Source of the DNA: Hellea sp.
Lineage (GTDB): Bacteria; Pseudomonadota; Alphaproteobacteria; Caulobacterales; Maricaulaceae
Direction: 5' to 3'
Assembly (NCBI GenBank): GCA_020628425.1
Contig: JAHDEZ010000031.1
Span: 1 to 33,040, forward strand
DNA: 33,040 nucleotides
Of the stretch, positions 24,590 to 32,964 are shown piece by piece. Numbering within the stretch: position 1 is the first letter of the stretch; each line of letters starts with the position of its first letter. Below the pieces are notes generated by a model. That model had not been told where the DNA came from. It saw only the letters and a list, made by a program, of their open reading frames with translations, and searched no databases. The position numbers were made by a program, and so were the translations under genes.

Positions 24590-25303
24590 CTATTCCATGG
24601 TGTAGACGACACCAAAGCGCAAGGCAGTGTCCGTCTTTTCCGTTCCGAAAGGAACGTCGGTGTGATGGTCAATCCGGTAGGACACACGAGCTGCCAGATT
24701 GCCCATAAGCTGGGCGTTCAGGCCGATATCATTCCAGATATAGGTATCACTTTCTGACCAGATGATTTCAGTGTCGTTATACAAAGACACATTTTCATTT
24801 AGCGCATAGTCGAAGTCTGAAAACCCACGGAGGGCAAATTCATTAGTCCGGGCGCCAATAACTGGGTTTTGTGAGCGATAACCGGCACCCGCTTCAAGGT
24901 TCCATCCAACTGGATCTGGCAAAATCATTTTGTAACCTAAACCAGCGCCGAGGAAATAACCGTCTTGGAACGCGCCGAAGTCGTCGTTGAAATAGTCGGC
25001 ATTGCCGTAAACATATGTCCGGTCGTTTAGATCTCTGTCGATCTGATAGCCGAGTGCAAAACGCTGCTTAGTTTTGATGCCGCTAACTTTGCCAAAATCT
25101 GCTAGGGCATCAAACTTGTGACGCCATTTGTCACCCTCTTTGGCTAGTTTCAGTCCGAGCGATAGATCTTCTGTATCAGTATTACCTGTTGTTTTGCCAC
25201 CAGCTAGAGATGCTTCGCCTGACCAGCCATCATCGTCTTGAGCAATAGAGATCCCAGCGAAAGATACGCTGAGCGTCAAGGCAATTGTAAATTTTTTAAA
25301 CAT
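24590..25303 (-). CDS. DUF481 outer membrane protein (YdiY-like)
   Basis: 237-aa exported beta-barrel. The start at 25303 is chosen because GAGG lies 7 bases upstream; an in-frame TTG at 25315 is less likely. The signal peptide MFKKFTIALTLSVSFAGISIA precedes QDDDGWSGEASLAGGKTTGNTDTEDLSLGLKL, the characteristic DUF481 opening. Repeated barrel strands follow (ALADFGKVSG, QRFALGYQIDRDLNDRTYVYGNADYF, GLGYKMI, LEAGAGYRSQN), ending FGVVYTME. The family includes E. coli YdiY, described as salt-induced; no substrate is known. It is divergent from hscC. Confidence 0.9.
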   Translation of the reverse strand: MFKKFTIALTLSVSFAGISIAQDDDGWSGEASLAGGKTTGNTDTEDLSLGLKLAKEGDKWRHKFDALADFGKVSGIKTKQRFALGYQIDRDLNDRTYVYGNADYFNDDFGAFQDGYFLGAGLGYKMILPDPVGWNLEAGAGYRSQNPVIGARTNEFALRGFSDFDYALNENVSLYNDTEIIWSESDTYIWNDIGLNAQLMGNLAARVSYRIDHHTDVPFGTEKTDTALRFGVVYTME

Positions 25304-25424
25304 AATGTTCCTCAATTTTAGATTCTCACTGCCGGGCTAATTGAGGCAGCTATTCTGTATAGAAGATGAATAGAAAGGGTGTTATTTTCCTTAACAAAAT
25401 CTTGCTGAAAATTAACCCGGTGAA

Positions 25425-25453
25425 TTGCTAAAGTGTTGAAAAATAACTATAAG
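25425..25453 (+). promoter_or_regulatory. Candidate sigma-70-type promoter of the hscC operon
   Basis: TTGCTA (25425-25430) and TATAAG (25448-25453) are separated by exactly 17 bases, with 4 of 6 and 5 of 6 matches to the -35 and -10 consensus. Transcription would start near 25460, leaving a leader of about 20 bases before the GGGG ribosome-binding site and ATG. No convincing heat-shock (RpoH) promoter is seen in the same 176-base gap. Confidence 0.4.
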
Positions 25454-25479
25454 ATATAGGAATCTCACGTGGGGAATAT

Positions 25480-27180
25480 ATGACACTCATCGCAATAGAT
25501 CTGGGAACCACCAATTCATTGGTGTCGGTATTTGAAGAGGACGGGCCTGTCCTTATTCCAAATGCGTTAGGCGATTTTTTAACCCCTTCCGCTGTGGGGC
25601 TTAATAAGGCCAATGAGGTTATCGTAGGTGCAGAAGCAAAAGACAGATTAGTAACACACCCTGACCGAACCTATGCGCGTTTTAAGCGCTATATGGGGAC
25701 AAACCGGGATTTTCGCTTGGGCCGAAAAACCTACAGAGCCGAAGAATTATCTGCGATGGTGTTGCGCAGTCTAAAAGACGATGCGGAACGCCATCTTGGG
25801 AAGCCTGTAGAGCGGGCGATTATCTCCGTTCCGGCATATTTTAATGATGTTCAGCGAAAGGCTACCTATGCAGCTGGAAAAATGGCTGGCCTGCAAATTG
25901 AGCGCCTCATTAATGAGCCCACAGCGGCCGCTCTGGCTTATGGTCTCAACACGCTTTCTGATGAAAATACCTTTCTGGTCATTGATCTAGGTGGGGGAAC
26001 ATTTGATGTTTCAATTCTCGAGATCTTTGACGGTATTATGGAAGTACGCTCCTCCGCAGGTGACGCGTTTTTAGGCGGAGAGGATTTTACAGATTCAATC
26101 GTAAAGGAATTTGGCGCTCAGAAAAAAATCGACCTTTCCAGCTTGTCTCCAAAATCAATGGGCCTTTTGCGGGATTTGGCGGACCGGGCCAAACGCGAGC
26201 TCTCAAGTAAAGAGGAAGTTGGCGTGAAGTTTAAGCTCGGAGAGGAACAAATTCCATTGACTTTAACCCGGGCAAAGTTTGACGAAATTACAAGGCCGCT
26301 AATTGAAAAACTCCGCCAGCCGATTAAACGTGCGATTTCTGACGCGGGCCTCAAGGCAGATGGAATCGACCGGGTCGTACTTGTAGGCGGCGCCACGCGC
26401 ATGCCGATCGTTAGACAAAATGTAACAAAACTTCTTGGCTTGTTTCCAGAGCATAAAATTGATCCCGACCAGGTTGTCGCCTTGGGCGCAGCCGTTCAAG
26501 CTGGATTGGTTGACCGTCATGAAGCGCTCGAAGATGTGGTTATGACTGATGTTTGTCCGTTTACTTTGGGAACCGATGTATCCCGTAAACTTGGTGAGGG
26601 GCGTTACGACCACGGGGCCTTTCAACCTATTATCGAACGCAATACTGTTATACCGGTGAGCCGTGTTGCAACCAATCATGCCATGGAAATCGGACAACAA
26701 AATGTCTCGATCAGTATTTTCCAAGGGGAGTCACCGCGCGTTAAGGATAATGTCTTTTTGGGGAAAATTGACGTCGCGCTCCCGAAAAAGCAAGAGCATC
26801 ACGAAGCCATTGATATCCGCTTTACCTATGACGTGTCGGGCATTCTCGAAGTGCTGGTGACGGTGTTGTCCACGCAGAAAACAAGCCGCATGATACTTGA
26901 GGGTAATCCCGGAAGTCTATCACAAGAGGAAATTGAAAAACGTTTTAAGGCCTTGGAAAAACTAAAAATACATCCAAAGGACAAGTCCGAAAATGCCGCC
27001 GTCATCGCACGACTAGAACGGGCCTATGAAAACCAATTGGGACATGTTCGTGAAGAAATCAGTTTTCGGTTGAGTCAATTTATGACTGTCCTCGAGGGAC
27101 AAAAGGATACGGATATAAAAATCGCGCGGGATGAGTTGATGAAATGGTTGGATGGCATTGAAAGTATGGATATTTTTTAA
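25480..27180 (+). CDS. hscC: HscC-type Hsp70 chaperone
   Basis: ATP-dependent Hsp70 of 566 aa, much shorter than DnaK and the size of E. coli HscC. Actin-fold motifs are intact: phosphate-1 DLGTTNS (7-13), INEPTAAALAYG (144-155), phosphate-2 VIDLGGGTFDVS (167-178), GGEDF (199-203) and adenosine-binding VLVGGATRMPIV (300-311). The substrate-binding part begins near TDVCPFTLGTDV (356-367), with ERNTVIPVSR and ISIFQGES. The lid is truncated and there is no DnaK-like C-terminal tail. The segment FKRYMGTNRDFRLGRKTY resembles HscC rather than DnaK. GGGG precedes the ATG by a few bases. It heads an operon with three J-like genes and its stop abuts the first of them (TAAATG). Confidence 0.92.
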   Translation: MTLIAIDLGTTNSLVSVFEEDGPVLIPNALGDFLTPSAVGLNKANEVIVGAEAKDRLVTHPDRTYARFKRYMGTNRDFRLGRKTYRAEELSAMVLRSLKDDAERHLGKPVERAIISVPAYFNDVQRKATYAAGKMAGLQIERLINEPTAAALAYGLNTLSDENTFLVIDLGGGTFDVSILEIFDGIMEVRSSAGDAFLGGEDFTDSIVKEFGAQKKIDLSSLSPKSMGLLRDLADRAKRELSSKEEVGVKFKLGEEQIPLTLTRAKFDEITRPLIEKLRQPIKRAISDAGLKADGIDRVVLVGGATRMPIVRQNVTKLLGLFPEHKIDPDQVVALGAAVQAGLVDRHEALEDVVMTDVCPFTLGTDVSRKLGEGRYDHGAFQPIIERNTVIPVSRVATNHAMEIGQQNVSISIFQGESPRVKDNVFLGKIDVALPKKQEHHEAIDIRFTYDVSGILEVLVTVLSTQKTSRMILEGNPGSLSQEEIEKRFKALEKLKIHPKDKSENAAVIARLERAYENQLGHVREEISFRLSQFMTVLEGQKDTDIKIARDELMKWLDGIESMDIF

Positions 27181-28065
27181 ATGCCGTCTGTAAATTCAGA
27201 ACCCTGGGCTGTCCTTGGGCTGGAAGGCCCCACCGATGACCTAAAGATCATTAAGAAGGCCTATGCGGCCAAGCTCAAAACGACCCGTCCAGAAGATGAC
27301 CCAGAAGGTTTTATGGTGCTCCGCCGGGCTTTTGACAGTGTAACCCGAAAGGATACACCCGTCTATGCGGAGCCGGTTTATGGTACGCCGCAAACTACAG
27401 ATGTAGCTACAGATACAGCCGATAAAATGAGTGATTTTGATGAGCCTGTTTCTCAAGATTTGCGATCACACTTACCGGAATATTATCATGAAATTCGCCA
27501 AGGCATTTACCGCATATTGGAGAACCCTGAGCGGCGGAGCAATATAAGAATATGGGAGCAATATTTTAAAGACGAGTTCTTTGAAAATATGGACCACGAT
27601 TTGGCATTGCCGCACATCATGTTGGAATGCCTTATGGATTTTACAGGTGTTTTTGATGGCCTGACCCTCAAGGAATCTCGAAAAAAGGCGAGGACGGAAA
27701 TCGGAAAAGATGCGGGTGTATTCATTTTTGAACAAATGGGATGGTCTGACCTGATTGAACGAAGCTATGATGACAATTCAAATTGGGATGTTCGTTGGTT
27801 GGCACAGGTTTTTGGTATTGGTCTTGAAACCAGAGACAAGCAGAAAGTCCGCCGAGGTATGTATAAAGATATCGGTTTCTTTTTGATATGCCTTACTGGG
27901 TTTGTGTTTTGGGCACGTGGTTTCATTTCGGATTATGACTCAAATCATTTATTCAGTTACGGTGTCGGCGCATCGATAGCGATAACCGGTATAATGGCAG
28001 GCTATTTGTTCTGGGAAATTGTTCGACGTTCTGGCAATAAGGTGTCTGACATGTCGGAGCATTGA
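27181..28065 (+). CDS. J-like membrane-anchored HscC partner 1 (RPE instead of HPD)
   Basis: 294 aa; first of three paralogues after hscC. The N terminus WAVLGLEGPTDDLKIIKKAY (9-28) resembles J-domain helices I and II, and AAKLKTTRPEDDPEGF brings Arg36-Pro37-Glu38 where classical J proteins have HPD. The loop to helix III (VLRRAFDSV) is about six residues shorter than in DnaJ. A low-complexity linker (about 60-90) is followed by a helical domain containing IWEQYF (124-129) and GWSDLIERS...VRWLAQVFGI. Unlike its two paralogues it has two C-terminal hydrophobic segments (231-247 and 257-280). The ATG directly follows the hscC TAA. By analogy with E. coli DjlB/DjlC it should recruit HscC at the membrane. 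Direct activity is unproven. Confidence 0.8.
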   Translation: MPSVNSEPWAVLGLEGPTDDLKIIKKAYAAKLKTTRPEDDPEGFMVLRRAFDSVTRKDTPVYAEPVYGTPQTTDVATDTADKMSDFDEPVSQDLRSHLPEYYHEIRQGIYRILENPERRSNIRIWEQYFKDEFFENMDHDLALPHIMLECLMDFTGVFDGLTLKESRKKARTEIGKDAGVFIFEQMGWSDLIERSYDDNSNWDVRWLAQVFGIGLETRDKQKVRRGMYKDIGFFLICLTGFVFWARGFISDYDSNHLFSYGVGASIAITGIMAGYLFWEIVRRSGNKVSDMSEH

Positions 28066-28069
28066 TAAC

Positions 28070-28921
28070 ATGGCGACGATTTGGGAAATACTTGATCTTG
28101 AAGGTCCAACAACAGATGAGAAAGTGATAAAGAAAGCCTATGCGGCGCGGTTGCGTATCGTAAGGCCAGATGAGGATCAGACCGGCTTTATGGCGCTACG
28201 GGATGCCTTTGAACGCGCACGAACCTACGCCCGAATACATGCCGAGGAAATAGACACTGATAGGATTTTCGAGGCCAGTAGACCACAGGAAGCCGCACCA
28301 CCGCAGTCGACTGAAAACACAGAGGGCGCGTCGAAGTTCGAATATAGCGAGGATTATGTACCCGAGGAACAAGTCCCTGTGTTTTTCGATGATGCCGCCG
28401 ATTTCAACTTTGTCGAAATGGAAGGACTATCGCCTGAGGAGGAGGCGGAGCAAGACTTTCACGATCAAATGCGCGAAAAAATTGCGGCGATTATCCGGAG
28501 CCCGTGGACCATTAATTCAGAGCATGCCTGGGATGAGCTTTTTGCTATTCCCGAATTAGAATTCATAGACGTAGAGACGCGATTTCAACGCATATTACGG
28601 ACTTCGCTTTTAGCGATGGCCGGTTTTTTTGGTCAGGAAGACGGAGACAAAGTTCTCAAGATGAAACCGGCAATTGCGGCGCATATTTTCCATCGAATGG
28701 ACTGGATGGATCCAAGCGGACTCTCAGATATGGAGCGCCATGAGTTATATTGGTTGAGTGATAAATTAGGCCTAACCCTTTATGATCAACCTAGTGAGGC
28801 CGAGTTGGATTTTTACGAAGCGCAGGAAGAGGAAGAAGACGGGGGTGTGAGCTGGAAAATTGCACTCGTTACGGTGCTGGGAACCAGCTTGCTTATTTAT
28901 ATCAGCAATAATTTTTTCTAG
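28070..28921 (+). CDS. J-like tail-anchored HscC partner 2 (RPD instead of HPD)
   Basis: 283 aa; second paralogue. The start at 28070 follows the previous stop by four bases, with CGGAG 10 bases upstream. The J-like N terminus IWEILDLEGPTTDEKVIKKAY (4-24) is followed by AARLRIVRPDEDQTGF, with Arg32-Pro33-Asp34 replacing HPD, and helix III MALRDAFERA. Residues about 60-130 are strongly acidic and probably disordered. The shared helical domain includes AWDELFAIPE (153-162), IFHRMDWMDPSGLSD and LYWLSDKLGL. One C-terminal membrane helix (261-279) leaves almost nothing beyond it, so the protein is tail-anchored with the J-like part in the cytoplasm (inference). Confidence 0.8.
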   Translation: MATIWEILDLEGPTTDEKVIKKAYAARLRIVRPDEDQTGFMALRDAFERARTYARIHAEEIDTDRIFEASRPQEAAPPQSTENTEGASKFEYSEDYVPEEQVPVFFDDAADFNFVEMEGLSPEEEAEQDFHDQMREKIAAIIRSPWTINSEHAWDELFAIPELEFIDVETRFQRILRTSLLAMAGFFGQEDGDKVLKMKPAIAAHIFHRMDWMDPSGLSDMERHELYWLSDKLGLTLYDQPSEAELDFYEAQEEEEDGGVSWKIALVTVLGTSLLIYISNNFF

Positions 28922-28924
28922 GCA

Positions 28925-29797
28925 ATGGAAGACGCGAAAACCATATGGACGGTTCTAGGCCTCGATGGTCCCATTGATGATAAATGTGCCATCAAAAAAG
29001 CCTATGCCAAACGACTAAAGGTAACGAGACCAGATGATGACCTGACGGCGTTCATCCAACTTCGTGAGGCTTATGAAGCCGCACTTAAATATGCGCCAGA
29101 CACTTCTATATCTTTCGATGAACTCGAACGACCAGCGTCACGGATTGAATTCGATGATGATTTAGAGCCAGAAATCTATCCCAATTCGGACCCGGAATAT
29201 GACTATTTTGAGATAGATAGTTCAGCCGCCGCTGATGAGCTTGTTTCTTTTTATCCTGAAGATGATCTGCAGCAAAGAATATCACGGGACATCCAATCTT
29301 TGTTAGCGAATGGTGATGCTCATCTCAAACCGCAAAGCTGGAAGCAAATAATCGAAAATCCGGATTATTTCTCTGTTGATGCAGAGCTTATTCTGGAGCG
29401 AATTATCCGAGAGGCGATATTGGTGCATTATGGATTTTACGCAAAAGACGGTGTTTTTGGAAACATAGGGTCTGCCAAGGAGGAGGCGTCGTCAATTTTT
29501 ATGTCGGAAGCAGCTGCCAGGTTTAACGGGGAGCGGCCGACAACATGGTTCGCCACATATCTGTTTGATAAATTTGAATGGCACCTACCTGAAAAAGTCG
29601 GCTTTGACCAATTTTACAAGATTGAATGGCTGAGACAAAAACTGGATGTCGTCAACCGATCGCGTTCAGATCTGGGACACAGCACAGAAACCGATGATCC
29701 ATTTGCTGATGATAAAGATGGGACCTGGCTCGTCGTTCTAGGCAGTCTTATATTCACATTCTTGATTGTATATTTTTGGTTTGGTAGGCGCTTTTAA
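28925..29797 (+). CDS. J-like tail-anchored HscC partner 3 (RPD instead of HPD)
   Basis: 290 aa; third paralogue, starting three bases after the previous stop without a clear ribosome-binding site, which suggests coupled translation. J-like segment: IWTVLGLDGPIDDKCAIKKAY (7-27), AKRLKVTRPDDDLTAF with Arg35-Pro36-Asp37, then IQLREAYEAALK. An acidic, Tyr-rich linker follows (about 75-115). The shared domain includes SWKQIIENPDYFSVDAEL (138-155), LFDKFEWHLPEKVGFDQF and IEWLRQKLDVV. One C-terminal membrane helix, 267-286, ends with GRRF. It is the last gene of the hscC operon and ends 14 bases from the convergent GT-C-like gene, with no terminator visible. Confidence 0.8.
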   Translation: MEDAKTIWTVLGLDGPIDDKCAIKKAYAKRLKVTRPDDDLTAFIQLREAYEAALKYAPDTSISFDELERPASRIEFDDDLEPEIYPNSDPEYDYFEIDSSAAADELVSFYPEDDLQQRISRDIQSLLANGDAHLKPQSWKQIIENPDYFSVDAELILERIIREAILVHYGFYAKDGVFGNIGSAKEEASSIFMSEAAARFNGERPTTWFATYLFDKFEWHLPEKVGFDQFYKIEWLRQKLDVVNRSRSDLGHSTETDDPFADDKDGTWLVVLGSLIFTFLIVYFWFGRRF

Positions 29798-29811
29798 GAT
29801 TGAAATTTATT

Positions 29812-31350
29812 TTATTCGATTGCGTTCGCGCGCCGTCGAAAAATGTCCATATCGTTCTTTGTCCCCGTTTTAACGTAGTTTGACCAAGCTTCTTTGAATG
29901 GCGCATATTGGCTATAATCAGCGACAAAGTCATAAGGGGCGCGCATGAAATTTTTGTTCCTCGATATGTCGACCAGGACGAGATCCGGCTTTCTTTCATT
30001 CAGATCATTGGTGACCGCATCCCACATGTAAAGCTCGATTTCGTCAAGCAAGGGGGTTGATGTGCCAAGTTCATGACGTCGGGTCTGAACGCCAGCAGAA
30101 TAGGACAGCGCACCAAATCTTGAGGTCCAGTTCTTGCCCGTTTCTGTAATGAGTGGAAAGCCGTAAAGTAGGTCGGTTGACATAATGAATAGTCCATCGA
30201 TATCCGGCTCAGTTTGAATGATTTCCAGCATGGGGTCGTAAAAACTAATCTGCTTTGTATTCGAAAAGCTTTTGGATGATTGGAAGAAGCAAAAAGCCAT
30301 GTAGAAAACTGCAACAATCGGTAAGGCAACTTTCAAAGGCGATGTCTCTTTCTCGCTGGATTTTCCGGAGGGAATAGCAAGATATATTGCAATCATTGCA
30401 AAGCTAACGCCGAATATCTGATGAGAATACCAACCTTTGCCCTGCAAGATGACGCTGAAATAGATCGCCATGGCAGCGACGATAAATGTTCCAATTATGT
30501 GTCGTTTCTCCTGCGGGGCGCATATGAATGCCATTAACAAGGCCAGTAGCATTAGCAGGATAGACGACATTGTTTTTCCAATTAAGACATGCCATGGTGC
30601 ATTAAATGTGGCCGAATATATCTCTGTTGCATAGGTTAGCATCTCTTTGGAAAAATAGTGCGGTGTCAAAACCCAAATGGACAAGAGATAGAGGCTGGCA
30701 ACCAAACCAACCATGTAGGGTTCGATCCTCGAAAACAGCTTTTTCAACCCTACATGAAAAAGAAGATAAATTTCCAAACCAAAAGGGATAATGAGAAAAT
30801 AGGGCTTGATTGCAAAACCTATACCTCCCAACAGTCCCACCAAGAGCGCAAGTCCAACGGGTATAGCTGTGCCACTCGTTCTGGCAGCGATCAGGAAAAC
30901 ATAAGGAAGGGATAATGCCAATCCGATATGTTCACGCTGACCAAAATTCCAACCTGGCAATAAAAAGAATAAACCAACCAGTAAAACGAACCAGATTGGG
31001 AGCCGCTCCTGTTCATTGATATATTTGAGCATTTTGCCGCAAAGTAAGATCAATATCGCTAAGGCCAAGGCGACGTAAATGTAAAAAGCGGATTTCAGAC
31101 TCAGGCCTAATATTTCTGCCAGAAATATAACCGGCAATTGAAGCCAAATAATCAGAGGAGGGTTTATCTCCATAACATCTTTGTAGAGCGTTTTACCGGC
31201 TCGTAATTCTGATGAAGCATGCACTAACCAAGAGACGTCATAGTTTAACGGATTGGTAAACAGCTGAAAAAGCGAAAACGCCGCTACAAGCCCGCAGAGG
31301 ACTAAGGCCAATATCAGTTTCTGACGAGTGTTTTCAGTAGCCGGCAACAA
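29812..31350 (-). CDS. Multi-pass GT-C-like membrane protein, paralogue A
   Basis: 512-aa polytopic inner-membrane protein, about 11-12 hydrophobic segments, with a soluble C-terminal domain of about 130 residues. The first periplasmic loop carries NYDVSW (Asp38) and KDVMEINPP (57-65), the kind of acidic site seen in GT-C glycosyltransferases that use lipid-phosphate sugars. FGQREH (136-141) and IKPYF are shared with the divergent neighbour. The reading frame has no ATG near its start; the only candidates are TTG codons at 31350 and 31347, right after an in-frame TGA. A glycosyltransferase role (GT39/ArnT-like) is inferred, not proven. The acceptor is unknown. Confidence 0.7.
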   Translation of the reverse strand: MLPATENTRQKLILALVLCGLVAAFSLFQLFTNPLNYDVSWLVHASSELRAGKTLYKDVMEINPPLIIWLQLPVIFLAEILGLSLKSAFYIYVALALAILILLCGKMLKYINEQERLPIWFVLLVGLFFLLPGWNFGQREHIGLALSLPYVFLIAARTSGTAIPVGLALLVGLLGGIGFAIKPYFLIIPFGLEIYLLFHVGLKKLFSRIEPYMVGLVASLYLLSIWVLTPHYFSKEMLTYATEIYSATFNAPWHVLIGKTMSSILLMLLALLMAFICAPQEKRHIIGTFIVAAMAIYFSVILQGKGWYSHQIFGVSFAMIAIYLAIPSGKSSEKETSPLKVALPIVAVFYMAFCFFQSSKSFSNTKQISFYDPMLEIIQTEPDIDGLFIMSTDLLYGFPLITETGKNWTSRFGALSYSAGVQTRRHELGTSTPLLDEIELYMWDAVTNDLNERKPDLVLVDISRNKNFMRAPYDFVADYSQYAPFKEAWSNYVKTGTKNDMDIFRRRANAIE

Positions 31351-31410: not shown

Positions 31411-32964
31411 GTGGGCAAACAGGATGCGAATATTTGGGCTATTACCCGGAGTGAGAGTTTGGACGCCTTCGCGACATCAGACCAGTATACAATTTTGGCG
31501 AAAGTTATTGCCATTATCGCGCTGGCCTATGCTCTGATTTTACAGTTTGGAACTTCTCTCAACCATGATGCGGCGTGGCATATGCAAACATCGCTGATGT
31601 GGCTGGAAGGAGGTCAGATTGGTAAAGACGTTGTTGACTTCAATCCACCTATGACGTTGTGGATTTCGTCTATCCCATCTCTTTTACATGTGTGGACGGG
31701 ATTATCGCCAGCGCTATTATTAAAGGCCTACGTGTTCGTACTTTTGGCCATCAGCTTTTTCTTTAGTTGGATTGTCTTGCATTCCGCGTTTTCAATGTCG
31801 AAATATGTTTTTCTGGCGTGTTTCATTTGCATAATGGTTTTGTATCCTGGCTACCATTTCGGTCAAAGAGAGCATCTCTCCCTGGTCTTAGTGTTACCTT
31901 ATCTTTTGCTTTCGGCGACTTTTCCGAATGATCGTCCGGGGGGCGCCATTTGCATTGTAGCGGGAATGTTGGCAGTGTTTGGTGTTGGTATAAAACCTTA
32001 TTTCGTTATTCTACCAATGTTGACTGAGCTCACGGTCAGTTTGCGGACGCGGAAGGTCACTAACTTTTTGCGAATTGAAACAATTTTATTGGCCATTGGG
32101 TTGTTTGCTTATCTTGGGGCTGTTTATATTTTCGCTAGGCCGTATTTGACTGAGGTTCTTCCCAAAGCATTTTGGAGTTACGAATATTTTGAAGGGGCAC
32201 GATTCCGATGGGTCACGCTGGGGCCTGCTTTGCTGTTTGCTGGCACAACCTTCTGGCTCATGAAAGACCGTAAGGTTACGACGTTCATGCCGATTTTTTG
32301 GGTGCTTTTTGCCGCCATGCTCGCCTATGCGATCGCTGCGTCTTTGCAAAACAAAGGATGGGAATATCAATGGATGCCAGTCATCATGGCAGCCATGCTT
32401 GCGGCGACTTTGGTCGCGCTATTTCCTCAGAAGTTCAGAGGTACTTCGGTTGTTGCCCTGATAAGTATTTTCGTATTGGTTAACCTTGGCCCTGCTTTGG
32501 GATGGACAAAAAACGGCCTCATTGGCGGGCAAGACTATTCGACAAGATTGCGGGTGGAAAAATTGACAAAAGTCATCGAGAAAAACGCCCAAGCTGAAGA
32601 CTATATCTACGGGTTCATCACGTCACCGCGGGATATTCATCCCGTTGTTTTAGAGACGAATATGCGATGGGCTGATAGTGCCGGGGCACTACTGTTCACG
32701 CCTGCCATCTTGTCAGGAAACTCAAATGAGTTGAGCAAGGAGGTTTTTGAGGCTATTAAAAGTGAAGAAGTGAAAATCATTAGAAACCTCGAGCTAACAT
32801 CGCCGAGAATTTTGATTTTCAACGCGGCTAACAGATTGGCCATTAGTGATGATGCCCCATCTTATATCGAGCATTTTTCGAGCTATCCCGAATTCACCGA
32901 ATTTTTTCAAGCTTACGAGCAAATTGAATGGGTAGGGTCTTTTGAAATCTGGGTGCGCCGCTAG
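31411..32964 (+). CDS. Multi-pass GT-C-like membrane protein, paralogue B
   Basis: 517-aa paralogue of the neighbouring minus-strand protein. Shared landmarks: NHDAAW (51-56) with Asp53, KDVVDFNPP (72-80), YPGYHFGQREH (145-155), GIKPYF and LQNKGWEYQ, plus the same topology and a C-terminal soluble domain. The start is uncertain: GTG 31411 directly follows an in-frame TAA, while TTG 31459 has GGAG (31448-31451) seven bases upstream and would remove 16 residues. The two genes are head-to-head with about 60-110 bases between starts. The stop overlaps the stop of the convergent uvrB-like gene through the palindrome CTAG. The glycosyltransferase function is inferred from the loop-1 acidic motifs. 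Confidence 0.7.
   Translation: MGKQDANIWAITRSESLDAFATSDQYTILAKVIAIIALAYALILQFGTSLNHDAAWHMQTSLMWLEGGQIGKDVVDFNPPMTLWISSIPSLLHVWTGLSPALLLKAYVFVLLAISFFFSWIVLHSAFSMSKYVFLACFICIMVLYPGYHFGQREHLSLVLVLPYLLLSATFPNDRPGGAICIVAGMLAVFGVGIKPYFVILPMLTELTVSLRTRKVTNFLRIETILLAIGLFAYLGAVYIFARPYLTEVLPKAFWSYEYFEGARFRWVTLGPALLFAGTTFWLMKDRKVTTFMPIFWVLFAAMLAYAIAASLQNKGWEYQWMPVIMAAMLAATLVALFPQKFRGTSVVALISIFVLVNLGPALGWTKNGLIGGQDYSTRLRVEKLTKVIEKNAQAEDYIYGFITSPRDIHPVVLETNMRWADSAGALLFTPAILSGNSNELSKEVFEAIKSEEVKIIRNLELTSPRILIFNAANRLAISDDAPSYIEHFSSYPEFTEFFQAYEQIEWVGSFEIWVRR

Follow-up and report, generated by a model that had tools for sequence, protein, structure and literature searches.

The window analysed here, a 33,040-nucleotide stretch from the marine bacterium Hellea sp., carries a compact unit of four plus-strand genes. 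The first, hscC (P0001; positions 25480..27180), encodes an HscC-type Hsp70 of 566 amino acids, and the other three encode the different J-like proteins J1 (P0002; 27181..28065; 294 amino acids), J2 (P0003; 28070..28921; 283 amino acids) and J3 (P0004; 28925..29797; 290 amino acids). The genes are separated by only 0, 4 and 3 bases, the start of J2 being taken as the ATG at 28070 (the mechanical open reading frame starts at TTG 28019). One HscC and three different J-like proteins with just these gaps had been read from the sequence in an earlier note, and this reading is borne out by the open reading frames and protein families.

Neither adjoining gene shares the strand of the unit: a DUF481 gene upstream is divergent, and a convergent gene ends 14 bases downstream. 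The promoter would be expected in the 164-base intergenic stretch 5' of hscC (25316..25479, plus strand), within which a consensus promoter scan found no σ70-like site. Over positions 25200-30000 the scan yielded 11 σ70-like sites as against 7.7 expected in shuffles, and terminator-like sites numbered 3 as against 5.2 expected. When cargo was sought among the neighbours of the unit, we found only a penicillin-amidase-like gene, the DUF481 gene and two further genes that match no family above the cut-off. The first two are in synteny with relatives (loci L016 and L017) and are regarded simply as locus markers. A search with anti-phage defence models gave no match. The host genome (3.07 Mb in 99 contigs, contamination estimate 5.38%) has a single hscC and three J-like genes of the DjlB/DjlC-like kind, all within the unit. 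J1, J2 and J3 share 27-31% identity pairwise over their full length (49-53% in the J domains); these three distinct sequences, together with the synteny, exclude that the triplet is an assembly artefact or duplicate.

HscC and the architecture of J1, J2 and J3

The Hsp70 of the window matches the Pfam HSP70 family (E 3.5e-137) and is 43% identical to E. coli HscC as compared with 36% to E. coli DnaK (alignment A4). It scores below the cut-offs of the NCBIfam models for DnaK (463.8 bits; cut-off 648) and HscA (389.9 bits; cut-off 708.55). HscC-type proteins are described in PMC8215388 as 550-580 residues long, with a deletion in lobe I of the nucleotide-binding domain (DnaK 76-101), a small deletion in the same domain that takes D211, an insertion of 4-8 residues in loop L1,2 of SBD-β and a nine-residue deletion in helix B. 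With its 566 residues the window protein falls within this range. In the alignment it lacks DnaK 79-102, DnaK 208-211 and thus the J-contact residue D211, and the nine residues 524-532 of helix B, and it has nine residues inserted after DnaK 403, one more than the quoted range for loop L1,2. HscC-type proteins are further said to lack the GrpE signature (quoted as 290-295) and the cleft salt bridges; on these points the picture is mixed, since it is the nearby DnaK 284-289 that is absent, and positions 56 and 264 are both aspartate, but lysine stands at the K55 and aspartate at the E267 position. The assignment to the HscC type is thus upheld by the hallmark deletions, the insertion and the identity to E. 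coli HscC. Equivalents of R167, Q378 and P419, which contact P34 and D35 of DnaJ, are retained. Among seven aligned HscC-type sequences R167 and P419 have equivalents in all and Q378 in six; all seven lack D211 and D477. A simple correspondence between linker residue 391 and motif type was not seen when these seven sequences were inspected by eye.

J1, J2 and J3 share a common plan of J domain, linker, helical module and hydrophobic C-terminus, and differ in linker length and in the C-terminus itself. The linker is short in J1, acidic and disordered over about 50-70 residues in J2, and acidic in J3. J2 and J3 each end in a single hydrophobic helix as judged from hydropathy, which for J2 also appears in the AlphaFold model. 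The C-terminus of J1 probably forms a hairpin of two hydrophobic helices, as suggested by a second hydrophobic segment (hydropathy 1.46) and an AlphaFold model of moderate confidence. The idea that every J-like protein ends in a membrane anchor therefore holds with respect to the hydrophobic C-termini, but in J1 two helices apparently take the place of a single tail-anchoring one. Nor do all family members have a tail anchor, since by hydropathy 12 of the 76 J-like proteins from named hscC loci lack a transmembrane segment (two of them cut by a contig end) and a further 20 have one away from the C-terminus.

None of the three proteins reaches the Pfam DnaJ cut-off of 27.8 bits; J3 gives a weak match (14.5 bits), and J1 and J2 give none at E up to 1. 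The J domain of J2 is nevertheless predicted with a pLDDT of about 95. A Foldseek search with this region returned J domains as 10 of the 11 best matches, none with E < 0.001 (2och: probability 0.98, TM by target 0.64), and the best E value in a profile comparison to solved J domains was 0.0013. By hhalign, a 27-row alignment (A3; headed by J2 and including J1 and J3) matched a set of 13 sequences containing DjlB and DjlC (probability 99.6, E 5.4e-25, 174 columns spanning J domain and helical module). Judged by this profile similarity, J1, J2 and J3 are short relatives of DjlB and DjlC.

The E. coli system, consisting of HscC with DjlC (Hsc56) and DjlB, resembles that of the window in the type of its Hsp70, in the vicinity of the genes and in the make-up of its J proteins, which have a J domain, a helical module homologous to that of J1, J2 and J3, and a hydrophobic segment at the C-terminus. 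As stated in the earlier note, E. coli hscC lies near djlB and djlC, but these are on the opposite strand and each follows a DUF1266 gene, whereas the genes of the window form one same-strand unit with no DUF1266 gene. Moreover, E. coli has two such proteins of 475 and 483 residues with an HPE motif, as compared with the three of 283-294 residues, carrying RPE, RPD and RPD and including one probable C-terminal hairpin (J1), in the window. According to PMC8215388, the ATPase of E. coli HscC is stimulated by DjlC, a protein inserted into the plasma membrane, but not by DnaJ, CbpA or HscB; few clients of HscC are known, and its role is not settled.

J-like genes beside hscC in other genomes

Linkage was examined at 74 named hscC loci, which remained of 78 after removal of four (L090-L093) whose match to hscC was incomplete or had an identity of about 30%. 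Counting open reading frames of at least 90 amino acids with a J-domain E ≤ 1e-10, which leaves out an extra 71-residue J fragment at L030, we found a J-like gene at 73 of the 74 loci, and at 70 it lies on the same strand and starts within 600 bases of the hscC end. There was one such gene at 70 loci, two at three, none at one and three at none; at four loci fewer than 1000 bases follow the last gene of the pair, so that more copies are possible there. Within the order a J-like gene was present in 42 of 42 hscC genomes and adjacent in 41. These counts bear out a dedicated HscC/J pair whose linkage extends over distantly related bacteria. A single J-like gene of the DjlB/DjlC-like kind was found in 19 of the 25 genomes with a match in the family search, in which every candidate was scored, and in 41 of 45 genomes of the order search among the best-scored candidates. 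The order and class searches with alignment A2 covered the best six candidates per genome, making their paralogue counts lower bounds, and the order search with P0001 covered the best three. The phylum search with A5 matched 16 of 398 genomes, that of the window among them; as it covered the best two candidates per genome and accordingly shows two for the window, it was blind to triplets and was not used for the triplet claim.

Single-J loci of Hellea, Robiginitomaculum, Hyphomonas and Ponticaulis, like those of Paraburkholderia, Paenibacillus, Clostridium and Lachnospiraceae, consist of hscC followed by one same-strand J gene with a non-HPD motif, where the window has three. Two Hellea relatives have, at the syntenic place, one J gene, or one plus another upstream. 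Tandem expansion of the partner occurs in Robiginitomaculum sp. L088 (genome G144) and in genome G273, where hscC precedes two tandem J genes rather than three (motif RQD in the L088 pair), and possibly in G131, whose two J genes are both at contig ends, leaving room for more copies. In the part of the literature that was searched, no report was found of hscC accompanied by three or more J genes. Linkage of the J-like genes to hscC, the loss of which in relatives would have spoken against the earlier note, is thus kept, but usually for one J gene only; the three genes of the window are unmatched in the tabulation, and their packing into one unit is borne out as an expansion. Given that relatives at the syntenic locus and the named loci mostly have one J gene, we consider the triplet a local expansion.

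The HPD motif and selection on the J domain

The histidine of the HPD motif is generally held to be indispensable. At this position J1 reads RPE and J2 and J3 read RPD, a departure from canonical J domains that the earlier note had overlooked. It is shared by the family: none of the 76 J-like proteins from named hscC loci has HPD, and histidine is missing in 48. By contrast, the same genome encodes five DnaJ-domain proteins that score over the Pfam cut-off, and each of them keeps HPD. The HPE of E. coli DjlB and DjlC is not present in J1, J2 or J3, and because 48 of the 76 proteins are without it, HPE does not define the family. Among 113 J domains, de-duplicated by matched segment (J2 of the window is possibly counted twice), the first motif position is H, R, N or K in 105; at some hscC loci the J-like protein lacks both H and P (e.g. 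VTD, DIE, NVE). The motif changed at least six times on the hscC tree.

The J genes of the window are without a close homologue, the nearest having Ks values that are saturated or above 1.2, and selection was therefore measured in relatives. For the same reason 14 of 22 gene pairs (13 with a window gene, plus L016/L017) were not used. In the remaining eight pairs of related non-HPD genes, of which three have Ks > 1 in at least one part, Ka/Ks of the J domain ranged from 0.015 to 0.28 (median 0.05) and was in seven below the value for the remaining protein (median 0.12); the exception is L021/L088 with the motif RQD (0.28 versus 0.14). Judged by these ratios, purifying selection acts on the J domains without histidine in relatives. 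This, and the intactness of J1, J2 and J3, speaks against their being pseudogenes.

A probable membrane-recruited HscC system

Taking into account gene order, protein families, conserved linkage, motif, J-domain selection in relatives and predicted fold, all of which were computed here, we think it reasonably probable that these genes specify an HscC system recruited to the membrane, in which the three J proteins are alternative adaptors whose specificity resides in their fast-evolving parts. J1, J2 and J3 would be anchored in the inner membrane via a C-terminal helix or hairpin, exposing to the cytoplasm a J domain on a flexible acidic linker. Docking to HscC would involve the conserved basic helix II and the last two positions of the [R/H/N/K]-P-[D/E] motif, proline and an acidic residue, the place of the histidine being filled in most members by another hydrogen-bond donor, usually arginine. 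HscC would thereby be brought to clients at the membrane and triggered there, and the choice of client would be set by linker, helical module and membrane segment. Docking mode, ATPase stimulation and topology are inferred, and the conserved J domains next to fast-diverging remainders suggest distinct clients or sites for the three adaptors, as the earlier note had proposed. A parallel is offered by mitochondrial Pam18 and Pam16, a J protein and an HPD-less J-like protein, both membrane-associated, by which a single Hsp70 is positioned. Pam18, however, retains HPD and serves a DnaK-type Hsp70, while the HPD-less Pam16 binds the Hsp70 beside Pam18 without triggering ATP hydrolysis.

J1, J2 and J3 might instead be tethers or brakes that bind HscC without triggering ATP hydrolysis, the trigger coming from another J-domain protein (JDP). 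The missing histidine in these three and in so many family members is compatible with such a role, as are the five intact HPD proteins encoded elsewhere in the genome. Against the main reading, ATPase stimulation was lost in all systems tested when glutamine stood in place of the histidine (PMC8215388), and as glutamine fails despite being a hydrogen-bond donor, substitution by arginine is not guaranteed to work; a 2026 JDP review calls HPE seemingly 'the only replacement tolerated' (PMC13254874). Yet the single J-like gene in most genomes of the family search and, among best-scored candidates, of the order search would then be a brake without a trigger, the related DjlC does stimulate E. coli HscC, and HscC of the window retains the residues contacting P34 and D35. 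We therefore regard a tether or brake as unlikely.

Still less probable is a lineage-specific duplication, driven by dosage or drift, with little or no division of labour. It would fit the unstable J copy number at this locus within the genus (three, one, or one plus one), and elsewhere among relatives there are both orphan tandem J-like genes and genomes without any. A recent tandem duplication, however, is rejected on the low identity. A single clade of J1, J2 and J3 is weakly rejected (AU p 0.043; long branches). Together with the differences in linker length and C-terminus and the intactness of all three genes, this indicates that J1, J2 and J3 are old or fast-diverged and have all been kept. 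Very improbable, finally, is a role in transcription control in which HscC binds the housekeeping σ factor and membrane J-like proteins withhold it or release it upon stress: E. coli HscC co-purifies with σ70 and lowers σ70-dependent promoter activity when overexpressed (PMC3861889), but these data derive for the most part from overexpressing E. coli HscC or studying it in vitro, no gene of the locus points to transcription, and it is the membrane parts that diversify fast.

Pairing of HscC with a J-like protein is general, the triplet of the window is a local expansion, and the non-HPD motif is the less expected result. In the part of the literature that was searched, no description of histidine-less motifs in HscC partners was found. 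It is tempting to speculate, though with some reserve, that HscC and its partners represent an Hsp70/JDP branch functioning without the HPD histidine, often with arginine instead, of which the window, with three different membrane J proteins lacking the histidine as interchangeable client adaptors of one HscC, would be an extreme case. One HscC with three short, divergent membrane adaptors would amount to a natural separation of the constrained J domain from divergent, client-choosing parts. Likewise, genes that have lost HPD, still lie beside hscC and are under purifying selection in the relatives measured may serve as a natural panel on the indispensability of the histidine.

The hscC unit and its three J-like partners

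The window carries one hscC gene (25480–27180) and three J-like genes, J1 (27181–28065), J2 (28070–28921) and J3 (28925–29797), all on the plus strand. Re-derivation of the coordinates returned the layout described in the earlier note, with spacings of 0, 4 and 3 bases. The unit is alone on its strand: its upstream neighbour is a divergent DUF481 gene, and on the other side a convergent gene has its 3' end 14 bases beyond J3. A genome search placed the single hscC of the home genome and its three J-like genes of the DjlB/DjlC kind inside this unit. No DUF1266-like gene was recognized among the neighbouring genes inspected. By eye, the diverging pair 29812–31350 (minus strand) and 31411–32964 (plus strand) looks multi-transmembrane, and no Pfam family scored over cut-off for either gene; in the Hellea relatives L016 and L017 a gene 28–29% identical to a member of this pair lies directly behind the J gene, on its strand.

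The Hsp70, P0001, shares 43% identity with E. coli HscC and 36% with DnaK of that species, and scores far under the curated-model cut-offs of both DnaK and HscA. In the alignment it lacks counterparts of DnaK residues 79–102, 208–211, 284–289 and 524–532, and carries nine additional residues after DnaK position 403. The 79–102, 208–211 and 524–532 deletions and the insertion, one residue longer than the quoted range, match the HscC features listed in Mayer's review (PMC8215388); the missing 284–289 segment is near the 290–295 given there. P0001 is an Hsp70 of the HscC type.

None of J1, J2 and J3 reaches the Pfam DnaJ cut-off. A family profile of the J-like proteins hits J domains of known structure (best E 0.0013), and J2 is predicted with confidence to adopt a J-domain fold (pLDDT about 95); of its 11 best Foldseek matches 10 are J domains, at E-values without significance. 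An acidic linker follows, of about 38 (J1), 71 (J2) and 58 (J3) residues by our own division of the alignment; its confidence is low in the models of J1 and J2, both of which place a confidently modelled helical module between linker and C-terminus. A membrane anchor had been proposed for each protein, and a hydrophobic C-terminus is indeed predicted in all three, as a single helix by the model of J2 and by hydropathy in J3, but probably as a two-helix hairpin in the model of J1. Profile comparison with the DjlB/DjlC set (prob 99.6, E 5.4e-25) spans J domain and helical module, which identifies J1–J3 as short members of that kind.

The stated proximity of E. coli hscC to djlB and djlC is correct in that all three lie together in K-12 (L101:712–5664), but hscC has the strand opposite to both djl genes, which stand in a repeated pair (ybeR-djlB, ybeU-djlC) where a DUF1266 gene precedes each djl gene with a four-base overlap. 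The window unit is real and intact, and belongs to the known HscC-DjlB/DjlC kind, varied by its three partners.

Linkage across bacteria and rarity of the triplet

A scan of species genomes yielded 78 loci, and the 74 with a real hscC were used for counts. A J-like gene is present within the locus stretch in 73; in 70 such a gene begins no more than 600 bases from the hscC end, on the strand of hscC. As to number, one J-like gene is found in 70 loci, two in 3 and three in 0; the paralogue count proposed earlier shows the linkage kept in relatives, usually with one J-like gene. As named, the taxa are mostly Pseudomonadota and Bacillota, with a few Acidobacteria, Leptospiraceae and Parachlamydiales.

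Within the order Caulobacterales, hscC was detected at E 1e-110 in 42 of 398 genomes; all 42 have a J-like gene, adjoining hscC in 41 and on a different contig in one. Three more genomes have a J-like gene without hscC at this threshold, and one of these genes adjoins a partial hscC. Relatives of the J-like proteins occur in 25 of the 137 genomes of the family Maricaulaceae, beside hscC in 24; the sole relative in G005 is a J-less protein. The distribution of hscC is sporadic (7 of 61 genomes at E 1e-150, home genome included). In one genome, G128, the usual gene order is inverted: the J-like gene precedes a distant hscC (about 44% identical; L138:3016–5791), and both genes share one strand. 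Another, G003 (L096 and L100/L018), has two hscC genes with a separate J-like gene for each; one partner has DPA at the HPD position, together with four hydrophobic segments.

Synteny with Hellea MAGs comprises the amidase gene, the DUF481 gene, hscC and J. At this locus the window has three J genes, L017 one and L016 two, of which one follows hscC and the other sits upstream, flanked by the amidase and DUF481 genes. Pairwise identity among J1–J3 is 27–31% over the full length and 49–53% in the J domain. They do not form one clade in the tree, and constraining them to be monophyletic is rejected weakly (AU p 0.043), a result that the long branches may affect; nearest to J2 are the J proteins behind hscC of L016 and L017 (41–42% identity). 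Other tandem J pairs occur in Robiginitomaculum sp. (L088) and G273, and possibly in G131, whose two J genes lie at contig ends. Three partners in a row were found nowhere else in the 74 named loci or the 137 family genomes, where all candidates were scored, nor among the matches listed for 398 order and 385 class genomes (searches with alignment A2), where J copies per genome are "at least" counts.

The genus also has a second J-like locus (L132:4503–6697 in G001; L133:5905–6639 in G006; L135:5718–6335 in G005), near two genes that, from their sequences, look like EttA-like ABC-F and dienelactone-hydrolase-like genes. It holds a second tandem J-like pair in G001, on a contig stretch without hscC, and in G006 a single J-like gene whose motif is SLE. 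In G005 it holds the relative that lacks a J domain but has the helical module and a hydrophobic stretch at its end. A further J-less relative of the same make-up (L134:5514–6131, G006:C26) has no hscC on its 12-kb stretch.

The HPD position and the proposed recruitment of HscC

At the HPD position J1 reads RPE, and J2 and J3 read RPD. HPD occurs in 0 of 76 J-like proteins of the named hscC loci (HPE 28, RPD 16, RPE 12, NPE 6, RQD 5, KPE 2, others seven); as a control, all 5 DnaJ-domain proteins of the home genome over the Pfam cut-off carry it. Parsimony requires at least six switches between H and not-H at the first letter in the nearest partner, on a quick hscC tree with some long branches. 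Across 113 de-duplicated J domains the helix II tyrosine never varies, and there is little or no variation in the basic residues at -11 and -3, in F at +8 and in L at +11. The position of the histidine, in contrast, varies freely, with H, R, N or K in 105. In eight pairs of related non-HPD genes, J-domain Ka/Ks is 0.015–0.28 (median 0.05); the remainder of the protein has a higher ratio (median 0.12) in all pairs except L021/L088, with motif RQD. These low values, obtained from relatives only since the window's J genes have no sufficiently close homologue, argue that non-HPD J domains are kept and are not decaying.

The DnaK residues contacting HPD in the DnaK-DnaJ structure are summarized in PMC8215388. 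Equivalents of R167, Q378 and P419 are retained in the window's HscC; D211, which falls within its 208–211 deletion, and D477 are missing in all 7 aligned HscC-type sequences.

Families, gene order, linkage, selection in relatives and predicted architecture are shown here by computation, and the best reading is that three adaptors, J1–J3, recruit HscC to the membrane. DjlC stimulates HscC and is located at the plasma membrane via its tail, according to PMC8215388 and, for the anchoring, also PMC6794478. By analogy, J1–J3 would stimulate HscC and sit in the plasma membrane; arginine may substitute for the motif histidine, and the divergent parts may select different clients. The strongest alternative is that histidine-less J domains tether HscC without triggering it.

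According to a 2026 review of J-domain proteins (PMC13254874), no change of HPD other than to HPE seems to be tolerated. If the HscC partners act as J domains, their sequences suggest a much wider tolerated range. The non-HPD motifs across all surveyed HscC-linked proteins are of more general interest than the triplet, and are directly testable.
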